This document shows positions 57,577 to 64,000 of a stretch of DNA of 64,000 bases, piece by piece. Within the stretch, counting starts at the first letter, position 1, and each line of letters begins with the position of its first letter. Origin of the DNA: Ornithinimicrobium sp. F0845 (GTDB lineage: Bacteria; Actinomycetota; Actinomycetes; Actinomycetales; Dermatophilaceae). The stretch lies in contig NZ_JALKAL010000011.1 of assembly GCF_023015765.1 (NCBI RefSeq), positions 68,693 to 132,692 of the forward strand, written 5' to 3'. The translations under genes and the position numbers were made by a program. The notes beneath the pieces are model-generated. The model was not told the origin of the DNA. It made no database searches and saw only the letters and a list, made by a program, of their open reading frames with translations.

Positions 57577-57942
57577 CGGGATCGACCCTACGTCGTGCCT
57601 GTGGCTCGTGACAGCATCACCTGCCGCTGTGACAGCATGACCTGCACGGCGCGCGGACCGCCGCCGTCATGGTCGGTCTCAAGGAGCTCTCCACCGATCG
57701 CGCCCTGCCCTGGCCTCCAGGACGCTCTGTCCCGGAGAGAAATACACTCATGTCATTTATTGACCATCGCAAATAACACAGTTGTAGTTACTTCTATGAC
57801 ATTCTTTGTCTGCCCAAACAATGACGTTCCGAAGGTTTCGGAATAGCCGGGATGTGTGTATTCTCCACTTCGCCCCTTGCGTCACATCATTACCACTGAT
57901 CACAGGTGTTCAGCCCCGGCACCGGGTGAAGGGAAAGACCGT
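57577..57942 (+). promoter_or_regulatory. A/T-rich leader of the CWB2 protein gene, with palindrome
   Basis: Most of this 366-bp gap is gene-free. From about 57740 to 57860 base composition is far more A/T-rich than anywhere else in the window. A perfect inverted repeat TTCCGAA-GGT-TTCGGAA lies at 57827-57843. Promoter elements and a 5' leader are likely, but I cannot assign a specific regulator; a riboswitch was considered and not supported. Confidence 0.5.
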
Positions 57943-60198
57943 ATGCGCACGCCCCCGATGCGTTTTGCTCCGACCGCCAGCCTCTGCGCGCTGGCTCTTG
58001 TTGTGTCTGCGCCCGGTGCGTTTGCGGACCCGGTGTCGTCCCCCGAGCAGGCACCTGCGGACTCGTCCGGCACGACGGCGCAGAGCGAACTGCACGACGC
58101 GGACCACGGTCACGACGACGCTGCGCTGGACCTCCTGCAGGGCCTGGGTGACCCGTTCGCCGAGGGGCTGGTCGTGCCGGCCGACCCGTTCGTCGTGCCT
58201 GACGACGCGGCGGAGCGCGGCGTGGCGCAGACAATGCCCGAGTCGCCGATGGACTGGGTGGGCCTGCCGCCGGACCCGGCCGACCTGCCCGCGGAGTGGC
58301 TCACCGAGCAGCCAGCCGTCGACATCGAGCCGTCGACGACCGAGGAGCTCATGGCCGCCGAGGACGGGTACGTCGGTGGTGGCTTTGCCGCCGCCGGCGG
58401 GGGTGCGGAGCTGGCCGACCACACCATGTCCTCGGTGCCGGCCCCGCCGACCAAGGACCTGCCGGCCACCCTTGACGCTGCCCCGCCGTGGCAGTACTCC
58501 TACTCGTGCGACCCCAACAACAAACCCGGAATGGTCGCCTTCGCCAACCTCGTCTCCGCACACTACGACCGCCCCACCTGGTACGGCTCGCGCAGCTGCA
58601 AGTGGGACAGCAGCCAGCACTACGAGGGCCGGGCGATGGACTGGCAGATGAACGCCTACGACCCCGAGGACAAGGCCATCGGGGACGCCGTCGCGCAGTG
58701 GCTCTCGGCCAACAACGGCGAGATGGCCAGACGCTTCGGGGTGCAGTCGATCATCTGGAACAGGCAGTCCTGGTACCTCTACAAGCCGGGCGCCTGGTAC
58801 CCGTACTACGGGGCCTCGCCGCACACCGACCATGTGCATATCAGCTTCAGCTGGGACGGAGCGATGGGTCGCACGTCCTGGTGGGACGGCACACCGGTCA
58901 CCGCGCACGACTACGGCACCTGCCGCGTCTACGCCGGTCAGTTCGCCCCCCGCTACCAGGGCTTCAACGGCACACCCTGCCCCACCGGTCTCCCGGCGGC
59001 CCCCTACGCGCCCTACCCGGTGATCCTGCCGGGCGCCAACAACAACGACGTGGCGCAGGCCCAGCGTTACCTCGGCTTCACCGGCAGTGACGTCGACGGC
59101 TCGTTCGGCCCGCTGACCCTCCAGGCGCTCCTGAACTACCAGTCCGCCAACGCGCTGCCGTGGACCGGTGTCCTGGACAAGGCCACCTGGGCCTACATGA
59201 TCGCTGCCGGGATCCCCAGCGACCCCGTGCCGCCGGTGCCCCCGGACCCGCCCGCGCCACCGGACCCGCCGGAGGACCCCGAGCCTGACCCCGGGACCGG
59301 GGTCTCCCGGATCGCCGGTCCCAACCGCTACGCCACCGCGGCCCAGGTGGCCGACACCTTCCCCGCGGGGAGCCCGGTCTTCGTGACCGTCGGTCAGGAC
59401 TACCCGGATGCCCTGGCCGCCGCGGCACGGGCCGGTTCGTTGGGCGGCCCGGTGCTGCTGACCAGGGCGAACCAGCTGCCCGTGGAGACCGCGTCCGCGA
59501 TCCAGCAGCTCGAGCCGTCATCGGTCACCATCGTCGGCGGCAAGGGTGCCATCAGCACCGCCGTCTACAACCAGGTTGACCAGATCACCACGGCCCCGGT
59601 GACCCGGGTCGGTGGCAGCGACCGCTACGAGACCGCACGACACCTGGCCGGCAAGTTCGGCACCAGCGTCGACGTGGTCTACGTCGCGACCGGCACCAAC
59701 TACCCGGACGCACTCGCTGGCGCCGCGCGCGCGGGCTACAACGACGGTCCCGTCCTGCTGGTGCGGCCGGACGAGGTGCCGTCCGCGACCGTGCGCGCCA
59801 TGAACTACATCAACCCCTACCGGGTGGTGGTTCTCGGCGGCGACAACGCCATCAGCACCAGCGTCGCCACCCAGCTCAGGGACATGACCCGGTCCGGCAA
59901 CCTGCAGCGGGTCGCGGGCCCCGACCGCTACGCCACGGCTGCCGAGCTGGCCTCCTACTACCCCCAGGGGGTGGACACGGTGGTGATCGCCACGGGCCAG
60001 GAGTTCCCCGACGCGCTCAGCGGCGCAGCCCACGCCGGTGACGTGCACGGACCGGTCCTGCTCGTCACGCAGAACGGGGTCAACCAGAACACCCGCGACG
60101 CGCTGGCACGCCTGGACCCGCAGGAGATCCTGATCGTCGGTGGCACGAGTGTGATCCCGGACGCCGTCGCGGCCATCCTCGAGGACTACGTCGGCTAG
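57943..60198 (+). CDS. secreted LAS-type peptidase with peptidoglycan-binding domain and three CWB2 repeats
   Basis: A 751-residue exported protein. A signal peptide ends at about residue 28 (VVSAPGAFA). After a 150-residue acidic spacer comes a domain with a LAS-type metal site (His226 and Asp233 in SSQHYEGRAMDWQ; His297 and His299 in HTDHVHISF), similar to ARB-07466-like/VanY-type peptidases. Next is a PG_binding_1 domain (NNNDVAQAQRYLGFTGSDVDGSFGPLTLQALLNYQ), a Pro-rich linker, and three CWB2 repeats (for example RVGGSDRYETARHLAGKF), which bind the wall noncovalently. It is probably a wall hydrolase or remodelling enzyme. ATG 57943 follows AAGGGAAAG. Confidence 0.88.
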   Translation: MRTPPMRFAPTASLCALALVVSAPGAFADPVSSPEQAPADSSGTTAQSELHDADHGHDDAALDLLQGLGDPFAEGLVVPADPFVVPDDAAERGVAQTMPESPMDWVGLPPDPADLPAEWLTEQPAVDIEPSTTEELMAAEDGYVGGGFAAAGGGAELADHTMSSVPAPPTKDLPATLDAAPPWQYSYSCDPNNKPGMVAFANLVSAHYDRPTWYGSRSCKWDSSQHYEGRAMDWQMNAYDPEDKAIGDAVAQWLSANNGEMARRFGVQSIIWNRQSWYLYKPGAWYPYYGASPHTDHVHISFSWDGAMGRTSWWDGTPVTAHDYGTCRVYAGQFAPRYQGFNGTPCPTGLPAAPYAPYPVILPGANNNDVAQAQRYLGFTGSDVDGSFGPLTLQALLNYQSANALPWTGVLDKATWAYMIAAGIPSDPVPPVPPDPPAPPDPPEDPEPDPGTGVSRIAGPNRYATAAQVADTFPAGSPVFVTVGQDYPDALAAAARAGSLGGPVLLTRANQLPVETASAIQQLEPSSVTIVGGKGAISTAVYNQVDQITTAPVTRVGGSDRYETARHLAGKFGTSVDVVYVATGTNYPDALAGAARAGYNDGPVLLVRPDEVPSATVRAMNYINPYRVVVLGGDNAISTSVATQLRDMTRSGNLQRVAGPDRYATAAELASYYPQGVDTVVIATGQEFPDALSGAAHAGDVHGPVLLVTQNGVNQNTRDALARLDPQEILIVGGTSVIPDAVAAILEDYVG

Positions 60199-60749
60199 AA
60201 CAGCGCGAGCACGGCCCAGCCCAGCAGCACCGTGGCGACGACCGTGCCACTGCGCTCGAGCCACCGGGTGTGGCTGGACAGGAAGTGCTGCCAGCCGGGG
60301 CGCCCGAGCAGGATGTACTGCAGCACGGCCACGGCCCGCGAGGCGCCGAACGCCGCCCCCAGGGTGACCGCCCAGGCCAGCGGCAGGCCGGCCAGCAGGA
60401 CGAACAGCGCGGCGACATAGGAGGCGGCGGACGGGACCAGCGTGCGGAAGCCGCAGCCGTACTCCACGCCGAACCGGAGGCCCCCGCGGCCCAGGCCGCG
60501 GGCGAAGACCTCCTGCGGGATGAGCTCCTTGCGCTGCGGCAGACCCAGCAGCGGCTGGCGCAGGTCCAGCACCGTCAGGGACACCGCGAGCAGCCCGAAG
60601 AGCACGGCACGCACGCCGGCGGGCACCGGGGAGAGCAGCCCGGAGAAGACTCCCAGGACGGTGCCGGTGAAGGCGCCGCCGACGGTGCAGCCCACCAGGA
60701 AGGCGGCCCACAGCCGGAGTTGGATCGCACGGCCTCGGACCGAGGCCAC
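60195..60749 (-). CDS. membrane protein of the MauE/MauD-type cluster
   Basis: A 184-residue protein with four or five helices (LWAAFLVGCTVGGAFTGTVLGVFSGLL, VRAVLFGLLAVSLTVL, TLVPSAASYVAALFVLLAGLPLAWAVTLGAAFG, VVATVLLGWAVLAL). The Cys in VGCTVGG and GVEYGCGFRT are positioned as in small actinobacterial membrane proteins found beside MauE-like genes; it may play a MauF/CcdA-like electron-transfer role, which is inference. GTG 60749 lies 24 bases after the preceding gene. Its stop shares bases with the convergent CWB2 gene's stop (CTAG at 60195-60198). Confidence 0.6.
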   Translation of the reverse strand: MASVRGRAIQLRLWAAFLVGCTVGGAFTGTVLGVFSGLLSPVPAGVRAVLFGLLAVSLTVLDLRQPLLGLPQRKELIPQEVFARGLGRGGLRFGVEYGCGFRTLVPSAASYVAALFVLLAGLPLAWAVTLGAAFGASRAVAVLQYILLGRPGWQHFLSSHTRWLERSGTVVATVLLGWAVLALF

Positions 60750-60773
60750 CAGCGCCCACGCGCTGTTCAGGCC

Positions 60774-60974
60774 TCAGGTGGAGCCGGAGAGCGCGAGCCC
60801 GGCGGCCACGACCGCGAGCAGCGCCGGCACCGGCCACGGGATGGCTGTGCCACTGAGGTGGAGTATGCCGAGGGTCACCCCGGCCACGGCCAGCAGCCCG
60901 AGCAGCGGGAGCGGGTCGGCGACCCAGCGCCGTGCCGGGCTCGGTGCAGCGGGCGAGGTGCTCAGATCGCCCAC
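60774..60974 (-). CDS. small two-helix membrane protein
   Basis: A 66-residue protein: a short polar start (GDLSTSPAAPSPARRWV) then two hydrophobic helices (PLPLLGLLAVAGVTLGILHLSG and VPALLAVVAAGLALSGS). GTG 60974 overlaps the end of the Cys/Trp-rich gene by 13 bases, the usual spacing in this operon. No family is recognised. It is too short to carry an active site and may be a membrane partner or assembly factor. Confidence 0.55.
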   Translation of the reverse strand: MGDLSTSPAAPSPARRWVADPLPLLGLLAVAGVTLGILHLSGTAIPWPVPALLAVVAAGLALSGST

Positions 60975-61564
60975 GGACAGATCGACTTGCTGCAGGCTCC
61001 GGAGGCGCTGCAGGTCCAGCCGTCGGAGCACCGGTAGGTGTTGCCGTCACTGAACTTCCAGTGCCAGGAGTCGTAGGTGCCCTGCCAGCAGTCGTCGGGA
61101 CGGTGCAGGTAGTAGCCGGTCGAGCCGGGGGCGTTCTTGTGCCAGCCGACCAGGTTGCCTGCGCCGTTGCGGTACTTCCAGCAGCACGAGCGCGAGGTGC
61201 ACATCGGCGAGGGCCCGCACATGATGCCGTTCTCGGTGTGGTTGCGCGCGTAGCCGGTCACCGGGTCGCACGGACCGGTGTTCGTGCTGGTCCAGTCGTT
61301 CCAGTAGACCGCCTGGGCGCTGTCCGTGGCCCGGTTGACCAGGAACAACGACCCCAGCCCGACCGCGGCGCCGGCGCCCAGCACCGAGCCCATGAAGGTG
61401 CGGCGCGACGGGCGGGGCCGCAGGCGCTTGCGGAGATGGCCGGTGTCGGCGACCGGCAGGTCGGCAAAGCTCACGCCGGCCCGTGCGTCCGCGGCCCATG
61501 CGTCCGCGGCCCGTGCGCCCGTGGCCCGGGTGTGGGTGGTCCGTGCGTCGGTGGTGTCAGTCAT
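60962..61564 (-). CDS. Tat-exported Cys/Trp-rich protein, MauA-like candidate
   Basis: A 200-residue protein. Residues 1-50 are Ala/Arg/Thr-rich; a twin-arginine signal follows (SRRTFMGSVLGAGAAVGLGSLFLV, residues 53-76). The mature 115 residues hold ten Cys (99, 116, 122, 127, 128, 159, 179, 185, 191, 196) and nine Trp, for example CTSRSCCWKYRNG and YDSWHWKFSDG. Tat export, even Cys number and neighbouring MauD/MauE-like genes recall the methylamine dehydrogenase small subunit, whose Trp pair becomes a tryptophan tryptophylquinone. I do not see the MauA CDYW signature, so homology is uncertain. ATG 61564 overlaps the MauD-like stop. Confidence 0.6.
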   Translation of the reverse strand: MTDTTDARTTHTRATGARAADAWAADARAGVSFADLPVADTGHLRKRLRPRPSRRTFMGSVLGAGAAVGLGSLFLVNRATDSAQAVYWNDWTSTNTGPCDPVTGYARNHTENGIMCGPSPMCTSRSCCWKYRNGAGNLVGWHKNAPGSTGYYLHRPDDCWQGTYDSWHWKFSDGNTYRCSDGWTCSASGACSKSICPWAI

Positions 61565-62130
61565 CCCTGCTCCTCTGTGAGGCGGATCGATCCGCGGGTC
61601 CCCCGGACCCAGGCGGTGAGGTCGGTGTCCCGGTCGGGCAGCGCGGCCGCGACGATCGTGCCGCCGCCGTCGACCGCCATCAGGTAGGGCGTGGCCGGCA
61701 CGTGCAGCTGCTCGAGCAGGTCGCGCCCCTGGGGCAGGCACCGGCCGGTGCCCGCCAGGTTGTCCAGGGCCGGGTCGCAGGAGCCGGTCGAGACCGCCAC
61801 GAGGGCGACCGACCCGTCCCGCACGTCGGGGACGTCGCTCAGCCCGGTCAGGGTGAGCGCGCACGAGGAGCACCCCGGCGAGACGAACGCCACGACCGTG
61901 CGGTGGGCCCCGGGCTCGACGAGCCCGGCGAGTTCCCCGTGGGCCGGGAGGCGGAAGCCCACCAGGTCGCGGGTGCTGCGCGGTGATCCGGAGGCAGGCG
62001 TGCTCGTCCCGGTCCGCCCGGCCTGGCCGCGCGTCAGGACGGTGACCTGGCGCAGCAACCCGGCGAAGCCGAGGGCGAGCAGCACCAGCGCGACCCAGGC
62101 CAGCAGGACGGCGGACTCCATGAAGCTCAC
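61561..62130 (-). CDS. MauD-like thioredoxin-fold protein
   Basis: A 189-residue protein with an N-terminal membrane anchor (VLLAWVALVLLALGFAGLLRQV) and an extracytoplasmic thioredoxin/AhpC-type domain with the active site CSSC (residues 87-90) in VVAFVSPGCSSCALTL and the cis-Pro region VPATPYLMAVDGGG. MauD-type proteins assist disulfide formation in MauA. The CxxC here is intact. GTG 62130 overlaps the MauE-like stop. Confidence 0.82.
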   Translation of the reverse strand: MSFMESAVLLAWVALVLLALGFAGLLRQVTVLTRGQAGRTGTSTPASGSPRSTRDLVGFRLPAHGELAGLVEPGAHRTVVAFVSPGCSSCALTLTGLSDVPDVRDGSVALVAVSTGSCDPALDNLAGTGRCLPQGRDLLEQLHVPATPYLMAVDGGGTIVAAALPDRDTDLTAWVRGTRGSIRLTEEQG

Positions 62131-62771
62131 CGGTGCTCACCCCCCATTTTTGGGGAGGTTTTGCTGGCCCTGCGCGCATTTTTGGGGAGGTTTTGTCCGC
62201 CCAGTTCGTGATGGATCCCGGCCTCGCGGCGGATCGCCGCCTCGGGCACCGCCCGGGCCGCGGGCAGCAGGGCGACGGAGAGCGCGATGACGAGCATCGC
62301 GGCCAGCGCCACACCCGCCTCGGCCGCGGGTGCGCCGGCCAGCGACCAGCCATCGGCACTCACCCCGCCGACCAGCGCCAGGGTGGTCAGTATGCCGCCA
62401 CGCAGGACCGCGGTCCGGCTCACCGGGGCCTCGCCCAGGCCGCAGGCGCACGGCACGACCCGGCCCTGCGCGGCCCGCAGGACCTGCCCCAGGTAGAGGG
62501 TGAACGCCAGGAAGAGCCCGGCGATCGGCATACTGACGGCGAGGGCGACCCCGGAGGGGACGTCGATGACAGCGGTGACCAGCGCGCCTGCCCCGAGGAG
62601 CGCCTCGAGCGGTCCGAGCACGAGGGCGACCGGCCCGCGGGCGCCGGGGGGCAGGACACCGTGGGCGTCCAGGCCGCGACGCAGGGCCGCGGGGGAGCGC
62701 AGGTGGGCGGCGGCCGAGGCCAGCAGCACCAGGCCGACGGCGCCGAGCAGGGCGGGCGACAGGATGCTCAT
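62127..62771 (-). CDS. MauE/DoxX-like redox-associated membrane protein
   Basis: A 214-residue protein with four helices (LLGAVGLVLLASAAAHL, VALVLGPLEALLGAGALVTAVI, LAVSMPIAGLFLAFTLYLGQVL, TAVLRGGILTTLALVGGV) and the conserved Cys pair motif VVPCACGLGEAPV after helix 3, diagnostic of the MauE family. It likely passes redox equivalents to the MauD-like protein. The C-terminal 25 residues (NLPKNARRASKTSPKMGG) are encoded by a twin direct repeat and are unlike the family. ATG 62771 overlaps the previous gene. Confidence 0.85.
   Translation of the reverse strand: MSILSPALLGAVGLVLLASAAAHLRSPAALRRGLDAHGVLPPGARGPVALVLGPLEALLGAGALVTAVIDVPSGVALAVSMPIAGLFLAFTLYLGQVLRAAQGRVVPCACGLGEAPVSRTAVLRGGILTTLALVGGVSADGWSLAGAPAAEAGVALAAMLVIALSVALLPAARAVPEAAIRREAGIHHELGGQNLPKNARRASKTSPKMGGEHR
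62145..62195 (-). repeat. 19-bp perfect direct repeat at the MauE-like C-terminus
   Basis: CATTTTTGGGGAGGTTTTG occurs at 62145-62163 and 62177-62195, a 32-bp period. It is A/T-rich in a GC-rich gene and reads (N/T)SPK or NLPK on the coding strand. It ends 15 bases before the MauD-like start, so it may be a short interspersed element or regulatory repeat within the operon. Confidence 0.85.
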
Positions 62772-63451
62772 GCCAGCTCCGCGGTCAGCCGGCTCAGGGT
62801 GGTGGCGACAGCGTCCACGTCGTCCTCCGCGCCGGGGATGCCGTAGACGATGAAGGCCGGTGCCTCCAGGACGGCGTAGTGCGCGCGCTCGTCCTCCGCG
62901 GACCGGCTCAGCCGACCGCCCGCCACGTCCAGGCCAGGACCGGTGGGCCGGGTGACGCCGTTGCGCGTGCGCCGCACGTCGAGCAGCGCGCGGTGCCCGG
63001 TCTCCAGGTGCACGACCTGGGCGACGTCGTGGGTGCGGAAGGGGGACCACTCCACGGAGCCGCCGGGCGTCAGGACCGGCCCCGCCGGGTCGGCGGTGAA
63101 CTCGACCTGAGACAACAGCGCCGTGAGCCCCTCGAGGTCGAGCGAGGGCACGGTGAAGCCGAAGACCTCGTGGTCGCCCACGCGGACCGAGAAGGCCAGG
63201 CCGGAGGCGGGGTCCCCGCCGTAGCGCCCGTGCCGCAGCGTCACGCCGTTGCGCAGCTGCACCTCGTCGGTGAGCGTGCTGCCGCTGACCGACAGGTAGT
63301 GCTCCAGGTGGGTGTGGTCGCCGCTGTTGACCTCCAGCTCCAGGCCGTCCTGGGCCAGCACGCTGATCGCGGCGGACGGGGGCAGGGTCGTGGCGTCGGG
63401 CACGTCGAGGACGAGGGTCTCGCCGTTGTGCAGGCGTCGGGTGGTGCGCAT
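62768..63451 (-). CDS. protein of unknown function in MauE/MauD-like operon
   Basis: A 227-residue soluble-looking protein with no signal peptide. It starts MRTTRRLHNGETLVLDVPDATTLPPSAAISVLAQDG and alternates short polar strands, suggesting a beta-rich fold. It contains no Cys. It is too small to be the beta-propeller large subunit (MauB). ATG 63451 follows a good GAGGAGTCC site, and the end overlaps the MauE-like start by four bases. It is the first gene after the CWB2 protein, 16 bases away, so it may belong to one transcript. Confidence 0.6.
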   Translation of the reverse strand: MRTTRRLHNGETLVLDVPDATTLPPSAAISVLAQDGLELEVNSGDHTHLEHYLSVSGSTLTDEVQLRNGVTLRHGRYGGDPASGLAFSVRVGDHEVFGFTVPSLDLEGLTALLSQVEFTADPAGPVLTPGGSVEWSPFRTHDVAQVVHLETGHRALLDVRRTRNGVTRPTGPGLDVAGGRLSRSAEDERAHYAVLEAPAFIVYGIPGAEDDVDAVATTLSRLTAELA

Positions 63452-63467: not shown

Positions 63468-64000
63468 TCAGCCGACCCGGCGGCCGAGCTGGTCGAGGAC
63501 GATCGAGTTGACCGAGGTGTAGCCGCCGAGCACGACCCCGGAGTCGGGGTTGAGGGCGTCGATGGCGTTGCCGACGGAGGCGGGCAGCCGGCTCGGCTGG
63601 GTCAGCAGGACGGGGTTGGCCTCCCGGCCGGCCAGGGCGGAGCCGGACAGGGCGTCCGGGAAGTCCAGGCCGGTGGCGACGAAGACACGGCTCCGGTTGC
63701 TCGGGAAGGTGTCGGCGATCAGCGCCGAGGTCTCGTAGCGGTTGGCACCGGCGATCCTGGTCACGCTGCCGGTGGTGTAGGCCCGCAGGTCCTGCTGGAC
63801 CGAGTTGGACACGGCGCCGGAGCCACCGAGTATGACGATGCGCCCGCCGTCGAGGCGCTCCAGTGCCTCCCGGGTCGCGATCGGCAGGTGGTCGGAGTTG
63901 GTCAGCAGCAGCGGTCGGCCGTTGCGGCCCGCGGAGGCGCCGCCGGAGAGCGCGTCGGGATAGCTGACGCCGCTGGCGACGTAGAGGGTGCTGATCCCGG
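63468..64000 (-). CDS. CWB2 cell-wall-binding-repeat protein, 5' part outside window
   Basis: The visible 3' part covers two cell wall binding type 2 repeats: one ending RIVILGGSGAVSNSVQQDL and one TRIAGANRYETSALIADTFPSNRSRVFVATGLDFPDALSGSALAG... GVVLGGYTSVNSIVLDQL. Several such repeats attach proteins to anionic wall polymers. The N-terminal function is beyond the window. It precedes the 227-residue gene by 16 bases on the same strand. Confidence 0.88.
   Translation of the reverse strand, partial: GISTLYVASGVSYPDALSGGASAGRNGRPLLLTNSDHLPIATREALERLDGGRIVILGGSGAVSNSVQQDLRAYTTGSVTRIAGANRYETSALIADTFPSNRSRVFVATGLDFPDALSGSALAGREANPVLLTQPSRLPASVGNAIDALNPDSGVVLGGYTSVNSIVLDQLGRRVG

Follow-up and report, generated by a model that had tools for sequence, protein, structure and literature searches.

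The locus analyzed here lies near one end of a 64,000-nucleotide stretch of the Ornithinimicrobium sp. F0845 genome (contig NZ_JALKAL010000011.1, positions 68,693 to 132,692), referred to below as the window. Its minus strand carries a compact operon encoding a 227-residue protein, a MauE homolog, a MauD-like thioredoxin, a Cys/Trp-rich protein with a signal for twin-arginine translocation (Tat) and a membrane protein whose frame contains a TGA (Table 1). A preliminary description of the window had placed the same genes on the minus strand, where we found them, and had counted two small membrane proteins at the end of the operon (60974-60774 and 60773-60195). According to our in silico analysis, these two are actually one frame split by a single TGA (60776-60774). 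We propose, with a probability of about 95%, that they form one selenocysteine (Sec)-containing membrane protein, a predicted homolog of MauF called Sec-MauF below. This reading of the UGA as Sec is based on the conserved frame around the UGA, on homologs that carry Cys, on a hairpin resembling a Sec insertion sequence (SECIS) and on co-occurrence with the Sec machinery.

Table 1. Features of the operon and its upstream gene (window positions)
Feature	Position	Strand	Basis or remark
CWB2 gene	63468..64000	-	Upstream of the 227-residue protein gene; cut by the window end at 64000
227-residue protein, family without a name	62768..63451	-	Kept in 23/23 loci
MauE homolog, membrane protein with CxC (VPCACG)	62127..62771	-	PF07291, E 9.9e-15, 55.4 bits, cut-off 27
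MauD-like membrane-anchored thioredoxin, CSSC	61561..62130	-	Position and synteny, model matches below cut-off
Tat-exported Cys/Trp-rich protein, presumed client	60962..61564	-	Twin-arginine model, 16.5 bits, cut-off 16.7
Predicted Sec-containing MauF homolog, 259 residues if TGA is Sec	60195..60974	-	One frame, single in-frame TGA
In-frame TGA, predicted Sec codon	60774..60776	-	TGA/Cys column and SelA co-occurrence
Predicted bacterial SECIS (bSECIS) hairpin	60730..60748	-	8-pair stem, GTC loop (60738-60740), spaced 33 nt downstream of the TGA

The frame of the membrane protein ends with the stop at 60195-60197, and its start was assumed to be the GTG at 60974. Relatives came from a protein search with the Tat protein in 97 genomes, including 31 of the window's genus. 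Strong matches were found in 22 of the 31 and in a single genome from outside the genus, the named relatives being Ornithinimicrobium and Serinicoccus; the seven remaining matches listed had E values of 1.8e-4 or worse. Twenty-two of the 23 strong-match genomes provided 23 loci (two copies from G023; G011 omitted). The TGA is invariant in all 23 of these genus-type loci, between flanks reading LSGST-TGA-G[LV]NSAW[AS]L. Residues directly before it are invariant and those after it nearly so, beginning with the first codon past the stop. Read through, the frame codes for about 260 residues, and the genus alignment shows numerous invariant positions both before and after the TGA.

The family profile found four distant actinobacterial genomes, all with the TGA at the same place, and a broader profile that includes MauF matched 79 of 396 actinobacterial genomes (E <= 0.01). 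The Sec/Cys column was read in 71 hits from fetched loci. Sixty-eight of them were aligned. Of the three others, one falls in an assembly gap, one lies at a contig edge (where extrapolation also gives TGA) and one is a fragment that lacks the column. The 68 aligned loci have TGA in 58 cases and Cys in 10, and none has Trp at this column. Overall, 57 of the 396 genomes carry the TGA form. In G399, the MauF gene runs off two contigs whose ends overlap (L095 and L096), which we kept unjoined.

SelA was detected in 235 of the 396 genomes. It is present in 55 of the 57 TGA carriers, including one partial match only (G294, E 5.4e-9), and the two misses are assemblies that are 68% and 73% complete; by comparison, none of the seven Cys-only carriers has it. 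One genome with TGA and Cys forms plus SelA (G194) was counted as TGA, and the other 15 of the 79 profile-positive genomes comprise 4 without the column and 11 with weak matches. The association between TGA and SelA gave Fisher values of 6.7e-12 against the rest and 5.8e-8 against the Cys carriers, with kinship not accounted for. We also searched for tRNA-Sec, counting matches above 60 bits, a threshold chosen here (other tRNAs score about 43-55 bits), as the scan is positive in all 97 genomes at the tool's own threshold. Within the genus, tRNA-Sec was found in 10/10 genomes with the operon and without a Sec-containing formate dehydrogenase (Sec-FdhA), in 11/12 with both, in 4/5 with FdhA only and in 0/4 with neither, FdhA being counted when full, or when partial with a TGA. 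The window's genome has tRNA-Sec (anticodon TCA), SelA and a SelB-like frame (L084, 236 bits, cut-off 242). In G016 (L085:7227-11139), tRNA-Sec, selA and a selB-like gene (SelB 230 bits, cut-off 242) are found right before the operon and in its orientation, with a divergent selD, and the selB-like gene ends 33 bases before the operon. The Sec formate dehydrogenase of the window's genome (G000) lies at L084:16608-17561 and shows a TGA followed by a hairpin.

The bSECIS model, as given in PMC13188914, has a loop of 3-9 nucleotides with a G in the first two, a spacing of 16-37 and an energy of <= -7.5 kcal/mol. The window hairpin (L038) reaches -12.4 kcal/mol with a spacing of 33. Hairpins within the published limits were found in 19 of the 20 distinct genus sequences and in 50 of the 57 TGA loci outside the genus, compared to 1 of the 10 Cys loci. 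Mean energies for genus, distant TGA and Cys loci were -11.3, -10.9 and -3.3 kcal/mol, and the means of their synonymous shuffles were -6.8, -5.5 and -3.5; this null was beaten at 5% by 19 of the 57 distant TGA loci. The stems covary, as 68 of 81 TGA loci (a count that the window's own locus enters twice) fit four geometries in which stems vary widely yet stay paired. The commonest geometry is shared by 43 loci with 13 distinct stems, and at one of its pairs 21 loci have G-C, 21 have C-G and 1 has G-U. Frequent loops are GTC, GGTC and of GG type. The hairpin of Sec-FdhA in the window's genome is weaker (-4.7) and likewise has a GTC loop. Rfam gave no SECIS match near the TGA.

The MauF of Paracoccus denitrificans has a Cys at the Sec column (WSPCG). 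To avoid circularity, the Sec/Cys column was masked before profile comparison. Masked hhalign of 62 distant sequences against proteobacterial MauF gave a probability of 99.6% (E 1e-24, score 162, shuffled maximum 24.4), and the distant sequences matched the window family at 98.6% (E 1.1e-15, score 107, shuffled maximum 16.6). As judged from these profiles, the whole frame is a MauF homolog, linked via intermediates. Neither half of the window membrane protein matched a family above cut-off in Pfam or NCBIfam, and NCBIfam 20.0 had no model above cut-off for the MauF-family members scanned, in overlapping sets of 2, of 5 plus Paracoccus MauF, and of 12. PF13386 (DsbD_2) was above its cut-off in one relative (L126, 28.2 vs 24.9 bits) and just below it in two. 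Among Cys/Sec positions, only the Sec is invariant in the alignment of the genus. Of 55 distant members, 33 contain no Cys besides the Sec in the stretch counted, and 18 contain one. A redox Cys pair of the CcdA/DsbD type was therefore not found in these alignments.

The window operon resembles the methylamine dehydrogenase set of Paracoccus denitrificans (NC_008688) in the succession of MauE, MauD and a Tat-type protein with many Cys, and in having a MauF homolog whose aligned residue lies within SP[C/U]G. It differs in four respects: a Sec codon stands where Paracoccus MauF has Cys; MauA, MauB and MauG are not recognized; CWB2 and 227-residue proteins are present instead; and MauF follows the client, whereas it leads the operon in Paracoccus. 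A plasmid of Thermomicrobium roseum (NC_011961) also has a TGA in its MauF homolog (L102:8684-9346), along with MauE and MauD-like genes, and the annotated public gene begins after the UGA. Unlike in the window, the nearby Cys-rich proteins of T. roseum are MauA homologs, and its other neighbors look propeller-like by eye only. No SelA was found on the plasmid record, the only replicon searched. Compared to the CcdA/DsbD carriers (PF13386), whose family matches some relatives of the window protein, one of them above cut-off, Sec-MauF has one invariant Sec in place of a Cys pair. Finally, like known bacterial selenoproteins such as formate dehydrogenase, it combines a UGA, a bSECIS-type hairpin and the Sec machinery.

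The preliminary description had reported overlaps of 4-13 bases between most of the genes, and the coordinates indeed give three overlaps of 4 (62768-62771, 62127-62130 and 61561-61564) and one of 13 (60962-60974). It had also called a MauE-like membrane protein with a CxC motif, in agreement with the PF07291 match, and a 227-residue protein of no recognizable kind, for which we likewise obtained no Pfam or NCBIfam match; a profile of the latter gave no significant match in the distant MauF loci searched. For the MauD-like thioredoxin, the CSSC motif holds and the match to the MauD model TIGR02661 is weak (15.6 bits, cut-off 188.6), with Thioredoxin_2 below cut-off too. The six genes, as first counted, occur in identical order in all 23 loci, so that a loss of the neighbors in related genomes, which the preliminary description had named as a refutation, was not observed.

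A gene for a protein with CWB2 cell-wall-binding repeats precedes the operon, ending 16 bases before the gene of the 227-residue protein. The part of its product within the window matches PF04122 (CW_binding_2, E 1.7e-32); CWB2 repeats were scanned with Pfam in the window copy only. This exported protein combines an N-terminal domain with the repeats and is about 565 residues long in L038. In 22 of the 23 loci (none in L031), gene calling placed a gene on the same strand immediately before the operon, and all 22 products share an N-terminal PC[PV]EG motif. On the plus strand, another large exported protein, with CWB2-like repeats by eye, is encoded at 57856-60198, convergent with and adjoining the end of the operon. 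One genome contains a diverged second copy of the operon (L053, G023:C211).

The presumed client had been described as a Tat protein with ten Cys and nine Trp, a composition that we recovered by counting in its last 115 residues. The RR motif and the ten Cys are invariant in the alignment of its family (22 sequences), as are five Trp. It had further been suggested that this protein could be a distant amine dehydrogenase, or else a new redox or Trp-modified protein. The idea of an amine dehydrogenase with a Trp-derived quinone did not gain support: the protein has no Pfam match to PF02975, and hhalign of its family against MauA gave a score of 18.8 (probability 2.2%), barely above the maximum of 17.0 among 20 column-shuffled profiles. 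A resemblance to MauA noted by eye, through Trp and Asp-Cys motifs, was rejected as it fails this shuffle-controlled test. Against PDB sequences the best E value was 0.28, and the predicted structure, with a predicted local distance difference test (pLDDT) score of 39, was too poor for a fold search or a comparison with MauA. A MauG-like di-heme gene (PF03150) was not found in the window's genome, where two controls were detected, and the heavy chain (PF06433) was not found either, though in this case the controls were not detected. On these comparisons, the Cys/Trp-rich protein is not demonstrably MauA. A weak second Cys/Trp-rich match lies outside the operon in G041 (L052:2236-2406, 28% identity, E 6.5e-4).

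Counting neither the genus-type set nor T. roseum, we analyzed the neighbors of 67 MauF loci, and 43 of these loci are well flanked (at least 3 kb on both sides). All of the first four distant loci have a Cys-rich exported protein close by, together with a MauD-like gene and a MauE match, the latter weak in L099. Within 5 kb of MauF, 39 of the 43 well-flanked loci have MauE, 38 have MauD and 38 have both, and the MauE and MauD profiles matched none of 15 control stretches. In one genome, Sec-MauF is fused in frame to MauE (G200, L150:5095-6282; PF07291, E 3.5e-21). Three loci with a Cys-type MauF (L205, L206 and L159, from G465, G228 and G172) have neither a MauE nor a MauD match within 5 kb, and their genomes gave no SelA match. 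Three Cys-rich client families match in 52 of the 67 loci and in 0/15 controls; their profiles were built from these 67 loci themselves, so these counts describe recurrence and are no independent test. In five further loci (L096, L099, L168, L170 and L174), a different Cys-rich protein carries an RR signal. Members of client family X have one or two Trp, most of them a single one, and LGFP repeats were found in the three members of family Y that were scanned. Neither X nor Y matches MauA above shuffles. We dropped a looser scan for Tat signals plus Cys, which was positive in 38 of the 43 well-flanked loci yet also in 8 of the 15 control stretches. In L172 and L173, the Cys-rich domain seemed by eye likely to be fused to CWB2, a reading that Pfam does not support and that we did not retain. 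Overall, the idea of a Mau-like set devoted to maturing an exported Cys-rich protein, already put forward in the preliminary description, is strengthened by a third accessory, the MauF homolog as a predicted selenoprotein.

Two other readings of the TGA have to be weighed. It could be an ordinary stop followed by a second small membrane protein, translated by coupling from the GTG at 60749. A mechanical list of open reading frames does yield two, and this codon, at position +9 after the TGA, is a possible start in 21 of the 23 loci (GTG in 20, ATG in 1). It is CTC or CTG in the two others (L037 and L052), which lack a start there, and near-invariant residues lie between the stop and codon +9. 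Since homologs have Cys at the TGA site within one continuous protein, and since the TGA tracks SelA and is accompanied by a SECIS-like hairpin, we regard an ordinary stop as very improbable. Still less probable, in our view, is an in-frame decoding of the UGA as a residue other than Sec, such as Cys or Trp. The sequence by itself does not tell which residue is inserted, but all non-TGA homologs have Cys and none Trp, the seven Cys-only genomes lack SelA, and the hairpin and the tRNA-Sec with anticodon TCA in the window's genome also speak against this decoding.

Several observations weigh against Sec-MauF and its proposed partners. No single genus hairpin beats its synonymous shuffles at 5% (7-66 of 100 shuffles are as good), the diverged copy L053 is the sole distinct genus sequence without a good hairpin, and at 7 of the 57 distant TGA loci the energy falls short of the limit. 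In the operon carrier G023 (570 contigs), tRNA-Sec was not found, although SelA was. Compared directly, the masked window family and proteobacterial MauF match weakly (probability 13%, score 29.4, shuffled maximum 20.2), and the window MauF homolog has no PF13386 match. Its structure model is of moderate confidence (pLDDT 72), with a helix broken just before the Sec, and Foldseek found nothing in the PDB at E <= 0.001. In the genus, 21 of the 23 MauF sequences contain one to three additional Cys, none of them invariant. MauE or MauD is missing at 5 of the 43 well-flanked MauF loci, three of these being Cys forms.

Taking both sides together, we consider it likely from sequence and synteny that the operon encodes a surface protein pair, the CWB2 protein and the Tat-exported Cys/Trp-rich protein, together with a dedicated redox apparatus for maturing this pair, made up of MauE, the MauD-like thioredoxin and Sec-MauF. 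In methylamine dehydrogenase, MauD and MauE help disulfides to form in MauA. The Tat-exported protein would arrive outside the membrane with reduced thiols and exchange disulfides with MauD, while MauE, through its CxC, and Sec-MauF would pass electrons between MauD and the membrane, in one direction or the other. The selenol of Sec-MauF would probably pair with a Cys of MauE or MauD in a mixed selenenyl-sulfide, because the Sec is the only invariant Cys/Sec of genus MauF and often the sole one in distant relatives. The client would finally sit in a complex bound to the cell wall. For this relay, a Sec-dependent module of disulfide maturation, we put the odds at about even.

In a variant of the relay, Sec-MauF would be a reductive conduit similar to CcdA/DsbD that keeps MauD reduced, MauD then acting as an isomerase and not as an oxidase. 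The DsbD_2 matches in relatives are in line with it, and clients with many Cys might need isomerization. DsbD uses two Cys, and since most distant MauF members lack the second one, we find this variant rather unlikely. A more distant possibility is that the machinery installs a Trp-derived quinone or another cofactor, the Cys/Trp-rich protein being a distant amine-dehydrogenase-like enzyme with the CWB2 protein as its partner. Methylamine clusters do contain MauE, MauD and MauF together, T. roseum pairs a TGA-containing MauF with MauA homologs (hhalign 98.7%), and the window family keeps its five invariant Trp. The lack of a PF02975 match, the MauA score close to its shuffles and the absence of a detectable MauG-like gene from the window's genome speak against it, as does the negative heavy-chain search, with the reservation on its controls. 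The mostly single Trp of client family X points the same way. The combination of a constant machinery with a varied client argues for general disulfide maturation over Trp-quinone formation, and we hold the cofactor explanation to be improbable.

Sec-MauF is apparently an unlisted selenoprotein family, accompanied by the same helper genes in many actinobacteria. None of the 119 selenoprotein families in Table 1 of a 2026 catalogue is MauF-like, and a term search of its available text returned no mention of Mau, methylamine or Actinobacteria (PMC13188914). The same kind of search in the available text of PMC12013277 and PMC5029168 returned no Mau entry, and the limited literature collection searched contained no report of a MauF selenoprotein.

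Our results thus add a predicted selenoprotein family that occurs in 57 of the 396 actinobacterial genomes sampled and that annotation can miss: in T. roseum, the only annotated case examined, the UGA and all that precedes it fall outside the called gene. They also indicate a redox role for MauF, for which our limited literature search returned no functional study, and tie MauE, MauD and MauF to several unrelated exported Cys-rich families. More tentatively, Sec-MauF could be the core of a general system of Actinomycetota, in which an intramembrane selenol helps to build oxidatively cross-linked, possibly cofactor-bearing surface proteins. Sec-MauF itself offers a reason, and may be the main one, why the 10 genus genomes with the operon and without Sec formate dehydrogenase retain tRNA-Sec and the Sec machinery. 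The Mau accessory set may be a general device for the maturation of surface proteins, with methylamine dehydrogenase as one client.

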